IMG/VR virus record: IMGVR_UViG_3300009504_000040
Coordinates: 1 to 22,744 of that record
Reading direction: 5' to 3' (one strand)
Origin: a virus
Length of the DNA stretch: 22,744 nt
The notes under the pieces were generated by a model. That model worked only from the letters and a program-made list of their open reading frames with translations. It had not been told where the DNA came from and did no database searches. The translations under genes were made by a program, and so were the position numbers. This document shows, in pieces, positions 3,407 to 11,034 of this stretch (its first letter is position 1; each line of letters starts with the position of its first letter).

Positions 3407-4444
3407 ATGAGCATCTTGTTACTGCGAAGACGGCCCGAGCTAACGTTGACGGCGACAACCACAGCATCGCCGCAGACGGTGAGCATCGCTCGCATGACGA
3501 TGGCTGATGGGCCGTTCATCATCAACTGGGGCGACGGCACGACTGAGGTACTTGACGGCTCGCTGACGACTGCACGCACACACGCCTACGCCACAGCCGG
3601 CACGTACCGGATACGGGTGCGGCGGCCGGAGAGGATAGCGCAGATACACTTACTATCGTCGGCGTTGGGCGGATTTAATACGGCACAACTTCGCAACTCG
3701 CCGATTGTAGGATTTTATTTGGCATCGATTACTGGCAGTACATTTAATTCCGCCGATATGCGGGGTTGGCCGGTGACAACTGATTGGCAGATACGCAATA
3801 TGCCGGCGGGCGGTATTTACAGAATTGACACCAGCGATATGGCACACTTTCGGCCAACTCGGTTTTGGTTCTACGCTATAGCAGGTGGAGATTTTGTACT
3901 TAATTCCGCTCAAATCACAGCCTGGAGGCCGAATGATGTCAGAATTGCTGGAGCATTACCCGCTGGGACATATACGATCAATTCGGTGCATCTGCAAGAT
4001 TGGCCCATAACGACGGCGTTTTACCTTAATTCAGTGCCTGCGGGCACGTATGTGTTCGATTTCGGAGATGTGACAACCTGGGCCGTATCATTCTTCTACC
4101 TGCACACCATGCCGGCGGGGACGTACACGATTAATCCGGCCACGTTTGCGGCATGGACGGGTATCCGTGACCTGCGTGTTTACACGCTCGACCCGATCAT
4201 CCCAACTGCAACCGTTGACGCTATTATCGACGCAATCCATGCCGCACGCAACGGCTACACGGTTGCGACCAACATCCGGTTGGATATCGGTGGTACGAAT
4301 GGAGGACCTACCGGAGTCGTCCAAAATGTCTGTCCGCCAACGACGCCAGGGGAACGCCTGTGGAACTTGCACCACGTACAATGCGCTGGTGACACACACC
4401 GAGTCTGGTCGCCAATTACCTATACAGGTGGTACGCTACCATGA
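3407..4444 (+). CDS. PKD-like and pseudo-leucine-rich-repeat protein, putative adhesin
   Basis: A 345-residue protein. Residues 12-72 look like a PKD fold: INWGDGTTEVL, then an AYATAGTYRIRV end, the classical WGDG-to-HxYxxxGxYxV pattern. Residues about 97-250 form five or six degenerate repeats of roughly 24 residues, with PAGTY and a Trp-ended segment (for example LPAGTYTINSVHLQDW, VPAGTYVFDFGDVTTW, MPAGTYTINPATFAAW), resembling BspA-type repeats. A globular end contains RLDIGGTNGGPTG. It has no secretion signal, so it is probably a virion component. A surface-binding or head-fibre role is inferred from the folds. The repeat region (about 3650-4110) is visibly more AT-rich than its neighbours, which may indicate separate acquisition. 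Confidence 0.6.
   Translation: MSILLLRRRPELTLTATTTASPQTVSIARMTMADGPFIINWGDGTTEVLDGSLTTARTHAYATAGTYRIRVRRPERIAQIHLLSSALGGFNTAQLRNSPIVGFYLASITGSTFNSADMRGWPVTTDWQIRNMPAGGIYRIDTSDMAHFRPTRFWFYAIAGGDFVLNSAQITAWRPNDVRIAGALPAGTYTINSVHLQDWPITTAFYLNSVPAGTYVFDFGDVTTWAVSFFYLHTMPAGTYTINPATFAAWTGIRDLRVYTLDPIIPTATVDAIIDAIHAARNGYTVATNIRLDIGGTNGGPTGVVQNVCPPTTPGERLWNLHHVQCAGDTHRVWSPITYTGGTLP
3695..4156 (+). repeat. Coding repeats of about 24 residues (pseudo-LRR array)
   Basis: Degenerate protein repeats within the PKD-like gene. Each unit has a hydrophobic strand, a PAGTY-like turn and a segment ending in W or F. Copies are visible at residues near 133, 185, 211 and 236, with weaker ones near 105 and 158. 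They are recognisable in protein rather than as strong DNA repeats, so they are old or under selection. Confidence 0.6.
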
Positions 4445-4884
4445 CCCATATCAAACACGCAGGCAAGCCTCAATTCTGGTATGGACGTGACGGCAAAGAG
4501 ATAGTCAGCGGCATACTCGGTCCGACGGAGGCGATGCTGCATCACTACACCGATGTGGTGGTCGATACATCGGAGATCGCTTTCTTGGCCAAACTGCCGG
4601 TGAGGGACCTGCCAGAGCTGCCGGAGAGCGGGTGGTTGGAAGTGGGCCAGGTCTACCAGCACAACGGTGTAGCGTTGATGATCCGAGAGTCGCATTGGCG
4701 CATACCGCAAGACCCTGCCGACACGCCGGCACAGTATATGATTGTGCCGTGGAAAGCAGGAGTGGATTACAAAGTGGGCGATCGTGTGAGATACAAAGAC
4801 AAGCTGTACGAATGCCAAGAGGCGCACACGAGCAAGGTGGGCCAGGAGCCGCCGGCGGAGCCGACGTTGTGGAAAGAGGTGTAA
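4441..4884 (+). CDS. Small protein with chitin-binding-like (CBM5/12-type) C-terminus
   Basis: A 147-residue protein whose ATG overlaps the previous stop (ATGA at 4441-4444). The last 45 residues (YKVGDRVRYKDKLYECQEAH, then TSKVG and a PTLWKEV end) match the short carbohydrate-binding pattern of CBM5/12 and ChtBD3 modules: aromatic, GD.V.Y, Y.C..AHTS, P, LW. A second, more diverged copy may lie at residues 65-98 (WLEVGQVYQHNG, then SHWRIPQDP). Such modules are common at the ends of phage fibres. Translational coupling to the PKD-repeat gene suggests the two act together as a head- or neck-associated binding complex; this is inference. Confidence 0.6.
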   Translation: MTHIKHAGKPQFWYGRDGKEIVSGILGPTEAMLHHYTDVVVDTSEIAFLAKLPVRDLPELPESGWLEVGQVYQHNGVALMIRESHWRIPQDPADTPAQYMIVPWKAGVDYKVGDRVRYKDKLYECQEAHTSKVGQEPPAEPTLWKEV

Positions 4885-4892
4885 GGCAGGCG

Positions 4893-6725
4893 ATGACACC
4901 GACTGAGACCATGCAGCTCATCGAAAAAGTGGAACGCGTCATCGAAGCCGCTACGCGTGCGTCGAAAGAGGCACGCATAGCACCGCTGGAAGCGGCGGCG
5001 GAGAAGCGCATCGCGTCGCTGTTTCGGCTGCAAGGTAAGGCGTTCAAACGCGAGGTAGACGCGGCGCGGCCGGCAGATGGTAGCGAACCGATCACCGAGG
5101 CGAAGGTCGACGAGCTGGAGCGACGGCTGGAGAAGGTGTTCATCGCGACGCTAAAGGAACAGTGGGACACATTCCAAGGTATCATCGAAGACGGGTTCGC
5201 GGCCGGCATCATGGACGCCGTCGAGCAGATGGGGCACAATCCTGATCTGCTGTGGCCACTGCTGGCGTTCGACGGACGGATGCAAGAATCGAATATTGAC
5301 CGCTTTCTAATGTTCCGGCTGGCGTTCAACTTGCGGTCACCTGGAGCGCGTGACTACATCGAGCACAGAAGCGCCGACTTGATAACTAAAGTCACTCAGA
5401 CGACCAAGGACCGCATAAGGCGACTGCTGATGGAGGGGTTTGACGAGAAGCGGAGCTACGATCAGACGGCCAAGGCGATCATACGTCTATTCCCGGAGAT
5501 GGCGATCGGCAAGCCGCAGTTGCACATCGACAGCCGAGCGCATCTGATAGCGGTGACGGAATGCTTCCCGGGCGATGTTCTAGTCGCTCCGTTTTCTCGC
5601 CCGATATCGCCGTTGCCTTTCCCTGGCTCGGGCGCGGCTAGCCTCAGTACTGGGTTTAGCTCCGGGTCTGAGTCTCCTATCAGATGGGCTGCGCGGCGTT
5701 GGTATGAGGGAGACTTGATCGAGATCGCAATGGCCAGCGGCAACAAGCTCACCGGAACCCCGAATCACCCTATACTCACCGATAGGGGATGGGTTGCTAT
5801 TGGCGCTTTGGCTAAAGGCGATTATGTCATCTGCTGCCGATTGGGAAAGCGGATGGCTATCAGTGACCCATGCGTAAAGGACATTCCAGCCGCATTCAGT
5901 GAGGTATTTGATGCGATTGAGAGCCGCCCGGGAGGAGCGGGCGCGAAGCGGGTTGCAACGCGTGACATGGATTTCCACGGCGACGGCAGGGATGGCTATG
6001 TCGATATTGTAGGGGCCAGCGGAGACTTGTTGCCTTACATTCAATCCCCGATCGCGAAGCCAGCCAGCCATGAGGTTTTCGCCATCGCCAACTTGTGTCA
6101 GTCTCCGTTCACGCGAAGCGCTCCTGTTGGCCAAGGCACGCGCAGATTTGGGGACACCCTTGCCCATGCGGGCAATCTCGCTCATCCGCCCCTTCGTGGC
6201 CGCGTGGGCATTGGCAAGATGGATATTTCGCTCAGCAGGCGAGCGCTTGGACCAAAAAAGCCGGAGGGCTTCCGAAGTATTGCGGATACGAACTCCGGCG
6301 CGTTTGAGGATTGTAGCGATACAGTCGTTGGAAACGCCATATCTGCGAGCAATTGCGCTCAGAGAATCTCCGGACAAATAACGTGTGATCGCATCGTTAG
6401 AGTCGACAGGAAACTTGGATGGGGGGGACATGTCTATAACCTCCATACTCGTTTCGGATATTATACAGCAAATGGCGTTATTGTGCAAAACTGTGGTAAC
6501 GCATACAGCGAAGGCGCGTACCAGGCCGGCGACAAGCTGAATCAGTCGGGGATCACGATGGAGAAGTCGTGGCTGACGTCAAGAGACGATAGGGTGAGCG
6601 ACGGTTGCGCTGAAAACGAAGATGCTGGGTGGATAGGGTTTTACGACGCGTTTCCGTCGGGACATCAACATCCGCTCAGGCATCCAGGCTGCCGATGTAG
6701 TCTCATGCAGCAGCCGGTACTGTAG
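4893..6725 (+). CDS. MuF-type (SPP1 gp7-like) minor head protein precursor containing an intein
   Basis: The 610-residue precursor would give a 300-residue minor head protein after removal of a 310-residue intein. The N-extein is helical and acidic or basic and runs to AHLIAVTE (residue 223). The C-extein (534-610) has the family end: SWLTSRDDRVSDGC, then HPLRHPGCRCSL. Together these are the MuF core (R.IA.TE, W.t..DdRV...C, HP.CRC), a protein bound inside the head near the portal. The intein interrupts the conserved TE motif. I chose ATG 4893, directly after the previous gene; the frame is open further upstream (to about 4632) but that region codes the previous gene in another frame. The sense frame stays open throughout, so the intein is not broken. 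Confidence 0.88.
   Translation: MTPTETMQLIEKVERVIEAATRASKEARIAPLEAAAEKRIASLFRLQGKAFKREVDAARPADGSEPITEAKVDELERRLEKVFIATLKEQWDTFQGIIEDGFAAGIMDAVEQMGHNPDLLWPLLAFDGRMQESNIDRFLMFRLAFNLRSPGARDYIEHRSADLITKVTQTTKDRIRRLLMEGFDEKRSYDQTAKAIIRLFPEMAIGKPQLHIDSRAHLIAVTECFPGDVLVAPFSRPISPLPFPGSGAASLSTGFSSGSESPIRWAARRWYEGDLIEIAMASGNKLTGTPNHPILTDRGWVAIGALAKGDYVICCRLGKRMAISDPCVKDIPAAFSEVFDAIESRPGGAGAKRVATRDMDFHGDGRDGYVDIVGASGDLLPYIQSPIAKPASHEVFAIANLCQSPFTRSAPVGQGTRRFGDTLAHAGNLAHPPLRGRVGIGKMDISLSRRALGPKKPEGFRSIADTNSGAFEDCSDTVVGNAISASNCAQRISGQITCDRIVRVDRKLGWGGHVYNLHTRFGYYTANGVIVQNCGNAYSEGAYQAGDKLNQSGITMEKSWLTSRDDRVSDGCAENEDAGWIGFYDAFPSGHQHPLRHPGCRCSLMQQPVL
5580..6431 (-). CDS. Antisense homing endonuclease (HTH plus Vsr/DUF559-like nuclease) nested in the intein
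   Basis: This 283-residue protein is encoded on the minus strand wholly inside the intein. The start is ATG 6431, preceded by GGAGG (6440-6444) with an 8-base spacer; the stop is TAG at 5580-5582, only 18 bases inside the intein's first codon. Residues 12-50 form a helix-turn-helix (ITRYLSGDSLSAIARRYGVS, then CIATILKRAGVR), like DNA-binding parts of homing enzymes. Residues about 117-206 look like a PD-(D/E)XK/Vsr-like core: LRDRGLNVRQQ, YNIDIAIPAVAVEIH with D144 and E153, RIKYLTECGWNVLYAWV. The C-terminus (264-283) is very Arg-rich. Codons align exactly with the sense codons, a register in which GC-rich genes often give spurious antisense frames. The domain content, ribosome site and promoter-like elements argue against that. 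Inferred role: cutting intein-less minor head alleles to spread the intein. A longer form from ATG 6446 is possible. Confidence 0.78.
   Translation of the reverse strand: MSPPSKFPVDSNDAITRYLSGDSLSAIARRYGVSNDCIATILKRAGVRIRNTSEALRLFWSKRSPAERNIHLANAHAATKGRMSEIARMGKGVPKSARALANRSASRERRLTQVGDGENLMAGWLRDRGLNVRQQVSAGPYNIDIAIPAVAVEIHVTRCNPLRARSSRAALNRIKYLTECGWNVLYAWVTDSHPLSQSAADDIIAFSQSANSNPSPIGEYRVIRGSGELVAAGHCDLDQVSLIPTPRSPSDRRLRPGAKPSTEASRARARERQRRYRARKRSD
6440..6488 (-). promoter_or_regulatory. Promoter-like elements and ribosome site for the antisense endonuclease
   Basis: Read on the minus strand: TTGCAC (6488-6483), a 17-base spacer, a perfect TATAAT (6465-6460), then GGAGG (6444-6440) and ATG at 6431. 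The -10 matches the sigma-70 consensus, the spacing is ideal and the -35 is weak (3 of 6). All of it lies within codons for the intein's C-terminal splicing segment YYTANGVIVQN, so regulatory and protein constraints overlap. Function is inferred from sequence only. Confidence 0.55.
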
Positions 6726-6739
6726 CATAGGAGGTGAAA

Positions 6740-8362
6740 ATGGCGACATTTGACGCAGGCAAACTCAAACAACTGGCGGGCGCGGCACTGGATGAAGCGA
6801 TTGTCCAGTATGAGATGCAATTCGAGGCCGAGAAAGAGACGAAGACTGAAGATGGCAAGCAGTTTCCGCGTGAGGCATACGCCTACACGCCGGACGGACC
6901 GTCCACGTGGAAGCTCCGACTCTGGGCAGAGCCGGGCGGCGGGCCGGACGCAAGCATTGTCGGCGCGGCTGTCGCGGCGCTGGGCAAAGGCTTTCGCGGG
7001 AAAAAGGTGCAGATACCGGCGGAGGATCTGCCGGCAGTCAAGCGCAAGGTGCGTGCCGCGTGGAAAAAGGCGAACCCGGACAAAGACGCCGATGAGATGC
7101 CGGCCGTGATCAAGGAGATAAAGGATGTGAAAACGAATTACCACCTGAAGGGCATGACGGAGATTCTGGAGAAGCTCGATTTGAGCCATGATGATGTGCG
7201 GAAGCTACTGCGTGATAAGATTCAAGGCACCGACCCTGGGGATATATGGGTAGCTGACGTCTATGACACGTGGTTTGTGTATGAGGGGAAGGATGGCAAC
7301 TACAAACGCACCTACGTGATTAATGGCGAGACCGGCGAAGTAACGCTTGGCGATGCGGTTAAGGTCATCGCACAAACTACGTGGATCACTGTCGGCGAAG
7401 CTGAAGCGGAGGAGCTTGACGGCGAAATCGTGCCGCTTATCGAGAAGTCGATACGCGACGACGGTACAATACCGATCAAGGTGATTTCGCCAGGTTGGGG
7501 CAGCAGCGGTTACTACCCCCCAGAGGTATTGCAGCGGGACGGTCCTAAAGTGTTCAAGACTGGGCTGCACACCTTCTGGAACCACCCGACCGTATCGGAA
7601 TCCAAAGAGCGGCCGGAGCGAGACTTGCGTGACCTGGCAGGCGTGCTGACAAAAGACGCTTACTACGACGCCGACGGGCCGGCTGGGCCGGGATTGTATG
7701 CGGAGGCGAAGGTCACGGATCAGTACAAAGCAGTTGTCGGAGAGCTTGCGCCGCACATCGGCATGAGCATCAGGGCCTTCGGCAAGGTGAAAGAAGGCAA
7801 GGCCGAGGACAAGAAAGGCCGCATCGTGGAGGAGCTCGCATCGGCGCAGAGCGTCGATTTCGTGACGGTACCAGGCGCCGGCGGGCGTATCCTGGAGCTA
7901 TTTGAGGCAGCCGGCCGAGAGCCGGCGGAGATACCACCAGACCTAGAGGAGGTCGCTATGGCGGAAGAGTTGGAGAAATTGCAGAGCGAGAACGCCGCGA
8001 TCAAAGAACAGTTGGAAGCGCTGCGGCGTGAAAAGGCGGAACTCAAAGCGGCCGAAATTACGGCGGCTATCCTGGCGGAGTCAGACCTGCCAGAAGCGGC
8101 GAAGGTGCGGATCAAGCGATCACTGACCACGCCGATGACCGAAGACGGCGACGTTGACGAAGATGCGCTCCGCACGAACGCGCAAGCGGCAATCGAGGCG
8201 GAGAAGGCGTACCTGGCCGAGGTGCAGGTCAAGCCGGCGCGCAGCGGCATCACTGGCATGGGGCCGACCGGAACCGACGGCACATCTACGCTCGAAGAGG
8301 CGTTCCGAAACTCAGGACTATCAGATCAAATGGCCGCAATCGCGGCTAGAGGACGGAGGTAA
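6740..8362 (+). CDS. Capsid maturation protease with C-terminal scaffold
   Basis: A 540-residue protein that both shapes and cleaves the procapsid. Residues 1-125 carry a domain with FPREAYAYTPDGPSTWKLRL and FRGKKVQIPAEDLPAVK, seen in phage proteases but of unclear role. Residues 138-217 form a second module (DIWVADVYDTWFVYEGKDG). The protease follows, with likely catalytic His282 (TFWNHP), Ser343 (HIGMSIRAFG) and Asp373 (SVDFVTVPGAGG), as in prohead proteases. From residue 407 a coiled coil (EELEKLQSENAAIKEQLEAL) and an acidic tail act as scaffold. The start is ATG 6740 with GGAGG five bases upstream rather than GTG 6734. The scaffold part also appears to be made separately from an internal start. 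Confidence 0.88.
   Translation: MATFDAGKLKQLAGAALDEAIVQYEMQFEAEKETKTEDGKQFPREAYAYTPDGPSTWKLRLWAEPGGGPDASIVGAAVAALGKGFRGKKVQIPAEDLPAVKRKVRAAWKKANPDKDADEMPAVIKEIKDVKTNYHLKGMTEILEKLDLSHDDVRKLLRDKIQGTDPGDIWVADVYDTWFVYEGKDGNYKRTYVINGETGEVTLGDAVKVIAQTTWITVGEAEAEELDGEIVPLIEKSIRDDGTIPIKVISPGWGSSGYYPPEVLQRDGPKVFKTGLHTFWNHPTVSESKERPERDLRDLAGVLTKDAYYDADGPAGPGLYAEAKVTDQYKAVVGELAPHIGMSIRAFGKVKEGKAEDKKGRIVEELASAQSVDFVTVPGAGGRILELFEAAGREPAEIPPDLEEVAMAEELEKLQSENAAIKEQLEALRREKAELKAAEITAAILAESDLPEAAKVRIKRSLTTPMTEDGDVDEDALRTNAQAAIEAEKAYLAEVQVKPARSGITGMGPTGTDGTSTLEEAFRNSGLSDQMAAIAARGRR
7958..8362 (+). CDS. Nested scaffold protein from an internal in-frame start
   Basis: Inside the protease gene, AGAGGAGG (7945-7952) precedes an in-frame ATG (7958) by five bases, the same spacing as the gene's own GGAGG and ATG at 6740. 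Starting there gives a 134-residue protein that begins exactly at the coiled coil (MAEELEKLQSENAAIKEQ), just after the protease domain ends. This mirrors lambda Nu3 within gene C, where the scaffold is translated in excess from an internal start. The arrangement is read directly from the sequence; actual production of the short form is inferred. Confidence 0.7.
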   Translation: MAEELEKLQSENAAIKEQLEALRREKAELKAAEITAAILAESDLPEAAKVRIKRSLTTPMTEDGDVDEDALRTNAQAAIEAEKAYLAEVQVKPARSGITGMGPTGTDGTSTLEEAFRNSGLSDQMAAIAARGRR

Positions 8363-8365
8363 GAA

Positions 8366-9346
8366 ATGGCGAATAACAAGGCTTTTAACCCGAGCTTTCG
8401 CCGGGCTGTTGTAGTCACGGCACCTGCTGCGGCTACTTCTGGCGCGGCTGTGCGCTGGGGACAACTGACCGGCGTGGCGCTGACTGACGTTGTTGCAGCA
8501 ACCGGCGTCGCGACCGTGGACTTCGGACCGTCAGCATGGCGTCTGTCCGTCACCGACACTGTGGGCGGCGGAATCGCTGTAGGCGATCCGCTCTATCTCA
8601 ACGACGCAGCAACGCTGCTGGACAACCAGCCGACGACCGGGCGATTCTTCGGCTATGCTGAGGAAGCGATCGGCGCTGGCCTGACGGCCACGATCTGCGT
8701 CTGGCACGAGCCAAATGCAACCGTCGGCACGCTCAATCTCCAAGCAGACGTCCTGGCAGCCAACGCGGCTGGCCGTGCGGCAATGGAAGCCGACTTCTTC
8801 AACGCCGCAACCGTCGATGATACGTTCGCGGTCGATTCGTTCACTGAGGCAAACGTCCTTAGCAAGTTCGCCGCTGATTCGTTCAGCGTGGCCAACGTCT
8901 TGGCAATCGTCGAGGACGAGGCAATCATCCAGGCGAAGATCGCAGAGTCGAGCCTGACAGGCTACGCTCCGGCTGTGTCTGCGGCTGATGCGGCAATCCC
9001 AGCCGTGCCGGTGTTGCTGCGGTATGACGTGCCGGACATGGCGACCGGCGTACTCGACTTCGACCTTACATACGGCGTGCTGGTCTTGGACGTGTGGCTT
9101 AAGAAAGTTACCAACAACGCCAGCGCACACGCTCACACCATCCAGGTGCAAACGATTGGCGGAGCGGCGAACATCTCTAGCGCGATGAGCCTGAACGCCG
9201 TCGCACAGAATACGCTTGTGCGCACGACGACAGTTGACGACGCCGCGGTTGTCGCTGCTGCTAACGCTGTTCGCATCGACGTTGTCCGAGCAGACGGCGC
9301 CGGCCAGGTGGCCTGCGAAGTCTACGTGCTCGCAGTGAAAGTCTAA
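8366..9346 (+). CDS. Capsid decoration protein (DUF2190-like) with fibre-type extension
   Basis: A 326-residue protein with GGAGG at 8355-8359. The first 115 residues (VVVTAPAAATSGAAVRWGQL, GVALTDVV, GIAVGDPLYLND, FFGYAEEAIGAG) match the small beta-barrel of DUF2190 decoration proteins that stabilise the capsid surface; such proteins are normally about 110 residues. A repeat-like linker follows (residues about 128-200, including AANAAGRAAMEADFF), similar to units of the tail fibre at 17417-18724. A C-terminal beta-sandwich follows (VLDVWLKKVTNNASAHAHTI to VACEVYVLAVKV). Its place just before the major capsid gene supports decoration; the extension probably projects outward. Confidence 0.72.
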   Translation: MANNKAFNPSFRRAVVVTAPAAATSGAAVRWGQLTGVALTDVVAATGVATVDFGPSAWRLSVTDTVGGGIAVGDPLYLNDAATLLDNQPTTGRFFGYAEEAIGAGLTATICVWHEPNATVGTLNLQADVLAANAAGRAAMEADFFNAATVDDTFAVDSFTEANVLSKFAADSFSVANVLAIVEDEAIIQAKIAESSLTGYAPAVSAADAAIPAVPVLLRYDVPDMATGVLDFDLTYGVLVLDVWLKKVTNNASAHAHTIQVQTIGGAANISSAMSLNAVAQNTLVRTTTVDDAAVVAAANAVRIDVVRADGAGQVACEVYVLAVKV

Positions 9347-9362
9347 CGGAGGTTAATCAAAC

Positions 9363-10493
9363 ATGAACGAGTTCTTGGAATTGATGGAGAAATGGGACGG
9401 CTTCCGGCCAGCATCCCGGGGGTTGAGCGAGGCGGGCATGGCTCGTGCGCTCGACCTGCTATCGAATAAGGCGGGCCACGAGCCTTACAAGCATCGCTTC
9501 CTGCTGACCGAGGCGATCACCACGTCCGACTTCCCGGTACTGTTCGGTGGCGTCCTGGATCGCCAGATGTTGGCGCTCTACCAGGCCGCAATGCCGGGAT
9601 GGCGAAGCTACGTACCGACTGGCACGCTGGCCGACTTCAGGGTGGCTGACTACCACAAGGTGCAAGGCAACCAGCAACTGCTTGAGCGTGTGAACGAGAA
9701 GGCCGAGTATCCTGAGACGCCGATGGCGGAAGCGCGCTACCACCGCCAGGTGTTCAAGCGTGGCCGGAAGTTCGACATCTCCTGGGAAGCGGTGATCAAT
9801 GACGCAATGGATGCCTTCGGCGACATCGCAACGCGGTTCGCAAACGCCGCGCTGTACACCGAGGGCATGGCGGCATCGTCAATCTATGCGGCGGCTGGCG
9901 GGCCGAGCGCCGCGCTGTTCGGCGCTCCGATTGCCGACGTTGACGGCCAGAACGTCACGAATGCAGGCGTTCTGCCGCTGACTATCGCTAACTTGGAGAT
10001 CACGATGCAGTTGATGTCCATGCAGACCGATGTGCAGGGTCGGCCGCTTGGGATCCGCGGCGTGCATCTGGTCGTTCCGCCGATGCTGGAGTTTACGGCA
10101 CGGCAAATCCTGACCAGTGCGCTCAAATCGTGGATTCCTGACGCTGCGGCAGCCGCTTCTATCCCGGTGCCGACCGCCAACGTGATCAGCCAGATGGGGT
10201 TGCAGTTGCACATAGACCCGAACCTGCCGATCATCACCGGCGTGTTGCCGAACAGCACATGGTACCTGTTCGCCGACAAGGCGCAGGGCAAGTACGGCCA
10301 GCTCGACTTCCTGCGAGGTCACGAGACGCCAGAAATCTGCATGAAGGCGTCGAACAAGGTGACGCTCACGGGCGGGCCGGTCAGCCCGTTCGACGGCGAC
10401 TTCGACACGGACAATATCCTGTGGCGTGTGAGGCACGTGCTGGGCGAAACGCAGCTCGATCCTCGCTACGCTTACGCTCAGGTTGGTCCGTAA
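9363..10493 (+). CDS. Major capsid protein
   Basis: A 376-residue HK97-fold major head protein, also related to Mu gpT-type subunits. Recognisable segments are ITTSDFPVLFGGVLDRQML, then GWRSYVPTGTLADFR (E-loop region), EKAEYPETPMAEARYHRQVF, KFDISWEAVINDAMDAF and a C-terminal WYLFADKAQGKYGQLDFLRG with ETQLDPRYAYA. There is no long N-terminal delta domain, consistent with the separate scaffold in the protease gene. GGAGG stands at 9349-9353. Position after protease and decoration genes is standard. Confidence 0.92.
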   Translation: MNEFLELMEKWDGFRPASRGLSEAGMARALDLLSNKAGHEPYKHRFLLTEAITTSDFPVLFGGVLDRQMLALYQAAMPGWRSYVPTGTLADFRVADYHKVQGNQQLLERVNEKAEYPETPMAEARYHRQVFKRGRKFDISWEAVINDAMDAFGDIATRFANAALYTEGMAASSIYAAAGGPSAALFGAPIADVDGQNVTNAGVLPLTIANLEITMQLMSMQTDVQGRPLGIRGVHLVVPPMLEFTARQILTSALKSWIPDAAAAASIPVPTANVISQMGLQLHIDPNLPIITGVLPNSTWYLFADKAQGKYGQLDFLRGHETPEICMKASNKVTLTGGPVSPFDGDFDTDNILWRVRHVLGETQLDPRYAYAQVGP

Positions 10494-10660
10494 TGAGCGA
10501 CTTGCCGAGGCCGGTCAGCGTCGAGGCGCACTACCTGGCGGCAATAGTTGAGCAGCTCCGCCGTCTCAATGCGGCGGTGGAGCAGCTCGGCCAGCGGCTG
10601 CAAGAGGTGGAAGCCAAGGCGCCAGCGGCTGGCAAGAAGCGAACCAAGGGGGGTGGGTGA
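10493..10660 (+). CDS. Short coiled-coil protein after the capsid gene
   Basis: This 55-residue protein starts at ATG 10493, overlapping the capsid stop (TAATG), and ends in TGA at 10658-10660, overlapping the next ATG (TGATG). It contains a heptad-like helix (AAIVEQLRRLNAAVEQLGQR) and a Lys/Gly-rich tail (KKRTKGGG). Such small helical proteins often follow capsid genes in phages; their role is unknown. Tight coupling on both sides supports expression. Confidence 0.6.
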   Translation: MSDLPRPVSVEAHYLAAIVEQLRRLNAAVEQLGQRLQEVEAKAPAAGKKRTKGGG

Positions 10661-11034
10661 TGGCGTTTTCGTACAATCCCACTGCGGTTACGGCCAGAGA
10701 CAGGGTGCGGCTGCTGATACCCGATCGGGTGACGCCAGATCACATCTATGAGGACGAGGAGCTTGACGCTCTCTTGGACTTGGAGGATGATGTCTGGTCG
10801 GCAGCCGCGGCCGCTCTGGAATCCATGGCGTCCGATCAAGCCATGGTCTTGAAAGTGATGAAGCTACTGGACGTTTCGACGGACGGAGCGAGAGTGTCAG
10901 ACGCGTTGCTGGCACGTGCCGAGAAGTTGCGTGAGCACAGCGCAGCAACGGTGCCGTCCTTCGACTGGGCCGAGATGGTCGTCAACGATTTCTCGGCACG
11001 AGAACGCCTGTGGGCGGAGGCGTTACGGAGCTAG
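10660..11034 (+). CDS. Head-tail connector (adaptor) protein
   Basis: A 124-residue mostly helical protein: VRLLIPDRVTPDHIYEDEEL, then LEDDVWSAAAAALESMA, and VSDALLARAEKLREHS. This matches the DNA-packaging or HK97 gp6/SPP1 gp15-like adaptor family that docks below the portal, and it lies first in the neck block. An alternative GTG start exists at 10657; ATG 10660, coupled to the previous TGA and after a purine-rich AAGGGGGG run, is preferred. Confidence 0.75.
   Translation: MAFSYNPTAVTARDRVRLLIPDRVTPDHIYEDEELDALLDLEDDVWSAAAAALESMASDQAMVLKVMKLLDVSTDGARVSDALLARAEKLREHSAATVPSFDWAEMVVNDFSARERLWAEALRS

Follow-up and report, generated by a model that had tools for sequence, protein, structure and literature searches.

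I-Bth0305I and its relatives occupy either a group I intron or the position between the halves of split inteins; the nuclease considered here is instead encoded antisense inside an intein. Gosselin et al. are said to have described, in 2025, actinobacteriophage inteins of non-canonical architecture, and may already have reported antisense endonucleases among them; judged by its title, that work concerns unusual layouts in phages of a kind that includes the Gordonia relatives found here. As in canonical endonuclease-bearing inteins, the splicing domains of the present element flank a mobility region, its insertion is site-specific and intein-free alleles exist. In textbook mobile inteins (e.g., PI-SceI) the endonuclease is fused in frame and translated with the host gene (PMC3943268), whereas the present endonuclease has a gene to itself, on the opposite strand and with start signals of its own.

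Three further systems share some of these features. The T4 endonucleases I-TevI, I-TevII and I-TevIII are encoded within a splicing element and have their own promoter and SD, but that element is an intron rather than an intein, the gene is on the same strand and the signals lie outside splicing-domain codons (PMC2988022). A homing endonuclease gene antisense to the host gene is known from nuclear group I introns (PMC9548176); these are RNA introns, and unlike the present element they are free of the coding constraint of a splicing protein. The ShiLan domain, an HNH endonuclease hidden within a phage methylase, likewise has its nuclease gene in another frame, within an insert which is open in the host frame; it differs in using the third frame with respect to that of the methylase, in being read from a larger transcript, in its GTG start and in lacking splicing domains and a detectable ribosome binding site (PMC11855218). 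A ShiLan-type hidden endonuclease was rejected as a description of our locus, at which splicing blocks are present and the nuclease is read from the other strand. A literature search, the scope of which left out bioRxiv and most subscription journals, recognised no paper on an antisense endonuclease within an intein; of the whole arrangement, the embedded, self-contained promoter is what seems most likely to be new.

In our assessment it is likely that the locus combines an intein, splicing on the plus strand, with a putative homing endonuclease which has its own promoter on the opposite, minus strand. Protein-splicing domains within a minor head protein would be specified by the plus strand and an independent HTH and Vsr/EDxHD-like nuclease gene by the minus strand; the codons of splicing blocks F and G would also contain the start codon of this gene, its ribosome site and its promoter.

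The host gene and its intein

The window, that is, the whole stretch of DNA analysed, comprises 22,744 nt (positions 1 to 22,744 of IMG/VR record IMGVR_UViG_3300009504_000040), and Rfam and tRNA scans of it were empty. The intein host is a minor head (MuF-like) protein gene on the plus strand (4893..6725), assigned by a match to Pfam Phage_Mu_F (1.2e-6, residues 527-605) and to PHROG head morphogenesis families. Directly before it in the head operon, 4441-4884 encodes a small protein that bears a carbohydrate-binding module (CBM_5_12, E 7e-16).

The intein itself is 310 aa long (5562..6491, plus strand), running from Cys1 to Asn310 and followed by a +1 Cys; these ends are exact, and homologues without the intein span the site. 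The hallmarks are present in the form of Cys1, the TxxH of block B, the terminal Asn and the +1 Cys, with block A reading CFPGDVLV, block B TPNHPIL (5757-5777) and blocks F/G VYNLHTRFGYYTANGVIVQN; the C-terminal end is ...VIVQN, in which the penultimate residue is Gln in place of His. The Pfam Intein_splicing model PF14890 matched the sense protein with 26.2 bits (E 8e-6), which is below its curated cut-off of 35.8, and in eight scanned relatives it scored above the cut-off in four and below in four. At the insertion site, between VTE and CGNAYSEG, 7/7 of the intein-free loci supplied to the search align across. From its sequence, the element appears to be an intein with putative splicing activity. 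The Pfam matches of the sense protein comprise only Phage_Mu_F and Intein_splicing, and no endonuclease fused in frame with the intein was found among them. The C-terminal HPGCRC of the MuF protein (6681-6698) retains, empty, the CRC site used by most related inteins, while the intein of the window sits between VTE and CGNAY.

The antisense gene and its product

Gene P0001 lies on the minus strand (5580..6431) and encodes 283 aa plus a stop codon, with an HTH (about residues 11-44) and a Vsr/EDxHD-like nuclease domain (about 115-212); its frame ends, at 5580, just within the N-terminus of the intein. Matches to the P0001 protein were found by tblastn in 126 phage records, and relatives numbered 192 among 230 viral-contig stretches (80 kept) and 10 among 36 genome stretches. 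In each of the first 11 annotated stretches (nine phage, two plasmid), the gene annotated at the match lay on the opposite strand. The antisense gene is unmarked in most of the annotated phage records that were opened, and common annotation therefore misses it. In the records of Snoke and KMB36 the intein is noted and the antisense gene unmarked, and in Salmonella phage PK1 (L160:1450-2259) the antisense frame is annotated as 'hypothetical protein'.

Of 113 loci, 112 keep a sense frame of identical codon register open throughout the match; the exception, L084, is a free-standing copy. Opposite a real gene, the codon register (c1-c3) may by itself give rise to a long spurious frame, and with a chance of an open antisense frame at the window's locus of P(open) = 0.027, openness is unremarkable; it was dropped as evidence for the gene, being too weak. 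The YRVIRG of the antisense C-terminus is no more than the TPNHP of block B in reverse. Substitutions in the linker tell against such a spurious frame. Over 16 pairs (11 distinct, as L075 and L096 duplicate L018 and L019) the rates were 0.278, 0.079 and 0.144 at sense positions 1, 2 and 3, respectively; sense position 1 is the antisense wobble position, and the antisense-type pattern was found in all 16 pairs. The exteins and splicing domains of the same pairs showed the ordinary excess at position 3. The linker substitutions track the antisense wobble and so identify the antisense ORF as a genuine gene, shown here to be protein-coding throughout the family; the excess at position 1 further indicates that selection in the linker acts mainly on the antisense protein. 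With homologues free-standing outside inteins and a recognisable nuclease fold also opposing it, we give the spurious frame a negligible probability. On the preferred reading the sense linker would serve chiefly to carry the antisense gene while staying free of stops. At one locus (L069:1555-3357) there is a stop in the N-terminal part of the antisense frame while the intein frame is open, possibly a decaying nuclease gene.

It is also conceivable that the minus-strand transcript serves mainly as antisense control of the head mRNA, with the protein secondary, given that its sequence would pair with the MuF mRNA. The antisense frame is conserved at protein level together with its start and SD, and free-standing copies next to a MuF gene without an intein retain the protein; both observations make this a very remote prospect compared with a transcript made for the nuclease.

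The fold assignment is carried by VIA-align and a profile search, the latter of which matched the PDB entries 3hrl and I-Bth0305I (3r3p); a Foldseek search against PDB returned zero matches at E <= 0.001. The AF2 model of the antisense protein has a pLDDT of 87.3 and a pTM of 0.63, and its nuclease part aligned to Vsr with Z 10.7 (113 residues, 2.8 A; a second Vsr entry Z 9.8), to I-Bth0305I with Z 9.7 (92 residues, 3.0 A) and to 3hrl with Z 9.5 (87 residues, 1.8 A), the next rows having Z <= 8.7. Pfam MTES_1575 was found in 43/68 antisense proteins. As to the named catalytic residues of the Vsr/EDxHD superfamily (E, D, H and D), the sequences show Y141, N142, D144 and E153 to be invariant and E118 to be conserved in at least 90% (68 and 61 proteins). 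The antisense protein is thus predicted to consist of an HTH and a Vsr/EDxHD-like nuclease, the catalytic-domain fold of which would be shared with I-Bth0305I and the Vsr-like nucleases, and on this model it probably acts as a homing endonuclease.

Start signals opposite the C-terminal splicing blocks

On the minus strand opposite blocks F and G, the initial annotation had read the series TTGCAC, 17 bases, TATAAT, followed by GGAGG, 8 bases and ATG, and all of these were found where it placed them. The ATG start codon of P0001 (6431-6429) is opposite the His codon CAT directly ahead of block F, and the GGAGG ribosome binding site (6444-6440) is 8 nt upstream of it. The overlap with blocks F and G holds for the signals, though with the ATG opposite the His that precedes VYNL and not opposite VYNL itself. 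The -10 element TATAAT (6465-6460), of the inner type defined below, is 26 nt inside the intein edge, and the weak -35-like TTGCAC (6488-6483) ends 3 nt inside the intein/C-extein junction. The position of TTGCAC and its 17-base spacing to TATAAT are as claimed, but as a -35 it is weak and matches the sigma70 -35 consensus at only 3/6 positions; TTTGCA (18-bp spacer) and TGCACA (16-bp), in overlapping registers, match at 4/6 each. Transcription is predicted to start at 6452-6454 (minus strand), about 7 nt past the -10, a position obtained from spacing alone. The structure of the predicted leader RNA is not unusually stable (z 0.74), and there is therefore no sign of a T4-style hairpin.

The exact pattern TTGCAC-N15..19-TATAAT occurs once in the window and in 0/100 shuffles; plain shuffles were rejected as a chance test because the pattern had been chosen after it was sighted, and nulls based on synonymous codons were used instead. 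With the sense protein fixed, 5000 redraws of the window's locus gave the ATG in 76%, GGAGG in 18% and TATAAT in 36%; the three signals coincided in 4.7% (p = 0.047), and the full promoter score had p = 0.09 under the same null. Taken alone, the start signals at this locus are only suggestive, being mildly unusual, and their significance therefore rests on the family. That the local codon pool so readily yields TATAAT, and that the residues of blocks F and G permit an SD, an ATG and TATAAT, are what would be expected if the signals simply followed from the conserved residues (HVYNL..NGII.HN) and from the AT-rich codons of the intein, an explanation which can be weighed against the relatives and against inteins without the gene.

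Of 120 loci loaded, 113 were matched, and 15 without block F by pattern were set aside; the remaining 98 gave 97 candidates and, after removal of proteins at least 80% identical, 76 non-redundant relatives. For each, the sense protein was held fixed and synonymous codons were redrawn from the same gene. The His before block F is encoded by CAT (antisense ATG) in 51/64 against 26.6 expected, and the block-F Leu by CTC (the GAG of the SD) in 56/66 against 17.3. An antisense ATG, GTG or TTG stands at exactly that His codon in 66/76 and no more than three codons downstream in six more, with none in four. A strong SD is found in 61/76 relatives (23.8 expected), an exact TATAAT in 27/76 (3.8 expected) and a 5-of-6 match to the -10 in 55/76 (28.6 expected). 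Codon bias reaches z 10-19 at codons 0 (His), 4 (Leu), 16, 17 and 18; over codons 19 to 33, C-extein included, no codon bias exceeded z 2.2, the bias thus stopping where the intein does. The excess persists at no more than 40% identity, where CAT is used in 23/28 (12.1 expected) and CTC in 22/28 (7.4 expected), with a promoter z of 1.53 (n=35). When a promoter score weighted by approximate E. coli frequencies (for family and control inteins alike) was slid along both strands of the whole region (n=76), the peak was on the antisense strand at block F/G, with a mean z of 1.34; the overlapping neighbouring interval had 0.74 and the remaining intervals, both strands, -0.54 to 0.42.

A control set was drawn from inteins without an antisense gene (29 loci, less nine duplicates and two without block F); in these 18, a small set from a single phylum, the promoter interval had z 0.38 (se 0.33), the -10 had z -0.01 and CTC was used in 2/11 against 2.9 expected, one intein having a high promoter score (z 4.09). 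As the family exceeds nulls that preserve both the amino acids and the local codon pool, and these controls show no such -10 or CTC excess, we consider it highly unlikely that the signals are by-products of the splicing residues. It is shown here that the start codon, SD and -10 signals exceed the requirement of the sense amino acids across the family, and there is strong evidence, for the family, of a sigma70-type promoter beyond chance.

The alignment of homologous inteins proposed in the initial annotation, which asked whether TATAAT and GGAGG are conserved beyond amino-acid needs, thus gives a positive answer in the 76 relatives, and the family-wide excess of start, SD and -10 bears out its view that the mobile unit itself carries its expression signals. 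Its expectation that relatives which keep the frame should not lose these elements holds in part, for no -10-like hexamer of at least 5/6 lies inside the intein in 24/76 relatives and a strong SD is absent in 15/76. Those 24 relatives without a clear -10, together with the single-locus promoter score and the weak -35, would also fit a real antisense gene at which the promoter-like sequence is due to chance, transcription reads through from another minus-strand promoter and only the SD and ATG are functional. A consensus scan of the minus strand from 6490 to 11000 found no further promoter-like site, and the family-wide -10 excess is confined to the block-F/G place; we consequently regard read-through as unlikely, and favour a promoter within the intein.

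Such a promoter appears in two layouts. In the edge layout (33 loci) the -10 is at the intein edge, and therefore a -35 would lie in host DNA; the TGn of an extended -10 is present in 19/33 against 4.1 expected, with no clear -35 excess in these 33 loci. In the inner layout (19 loci, including the window) the -10 is further inward and the -35 still within the intein; the -35 match is 4.53 against 3.59, reaching at least 5/6 in 9/19, and there is no TGn excess among the 19. Choosing the -10 regardless of -35 or TGn gave the same picture, with a slight -35 rise in the edge class (84 vs 76; sd 3.2, 400 redraws). As predicted from these motifs, both layouts confine the promoter to the intein, and a promoter kept wholly inside the element would work in whatever host gene it enters.

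Mobility, insertion sites and free-standing copies

A plausible course of events is that the intein-internal promoter fires, giving a minus-strand transcript from which the nuclease would be made; the nuclease would cut intein-free copies of the head gene, repair would copy the intein into the cut allele, and the sense intein would then splice out of the head protein. The mobility gene could in this way be switched on separately from the host gene. For late structural genes, an in-frame fusion would otherwise bind homing to late transcription, and a promoter of its own would uncouple the supply of nuclease from it. As the initial annotation proposed, such transcription could be early and independent of the late operon, and the minus-strand and head transcripts may be mutually exclusive in time. 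The arrangement also represents a dense form of overlap coding, in which synonymous codon choices within a catalytic protein motif spell out a probable promoter. This promoter adjoins the half of the target site that is retained, so that nuclease bound beside it could perhaps repress its own gene, a speculation drawn by analogy with I-TevI.

With belief and doubt evenly balanced, we suggest that these elements form a widespread class of phage inteins, in which splicing domains and a Vsr/EDxHD homing endonuclease occupy opposite strands and the F/G codons at the same time form a self-contained promoter with SD and start codon, the edge type having an extended -10 and the inner type a -10 with a -35 at the edge; self-repression by the nuclease would be the speculative part of this scheme. 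The host genes of related inteins include those for MuF, minor capsid protein 2 and the terminase large subunit, and the C-side junctions are many, CRC being the commonest (37/76).

In Acinetobacter phages and in L084 the nuclease gene is free-standing; it directly follows a MuF gene without an intein and is oriented towards it. Such copies let one see directly how a nuclease gene comes together with, or separates from, an intein. In a quick tree of 78 antisense proteins, which has few supported deep forks, the two free-standing forms are placed apart and one joins Vibrio L023 at 99. Where the free nuclease gene is convergent with MuF (L159:2501-3394 and L084:1507-2496), the C-terminal Cys motif of MuF near the usual intein site is uninterrupted. 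At a further locus (L073:1-3825, minus strand) the MuF-intein protein carries, as a fusion, a domain resembling ADP-ribosyltransferases (Pfam ADPrib_exo_Tox, E 2e-12).
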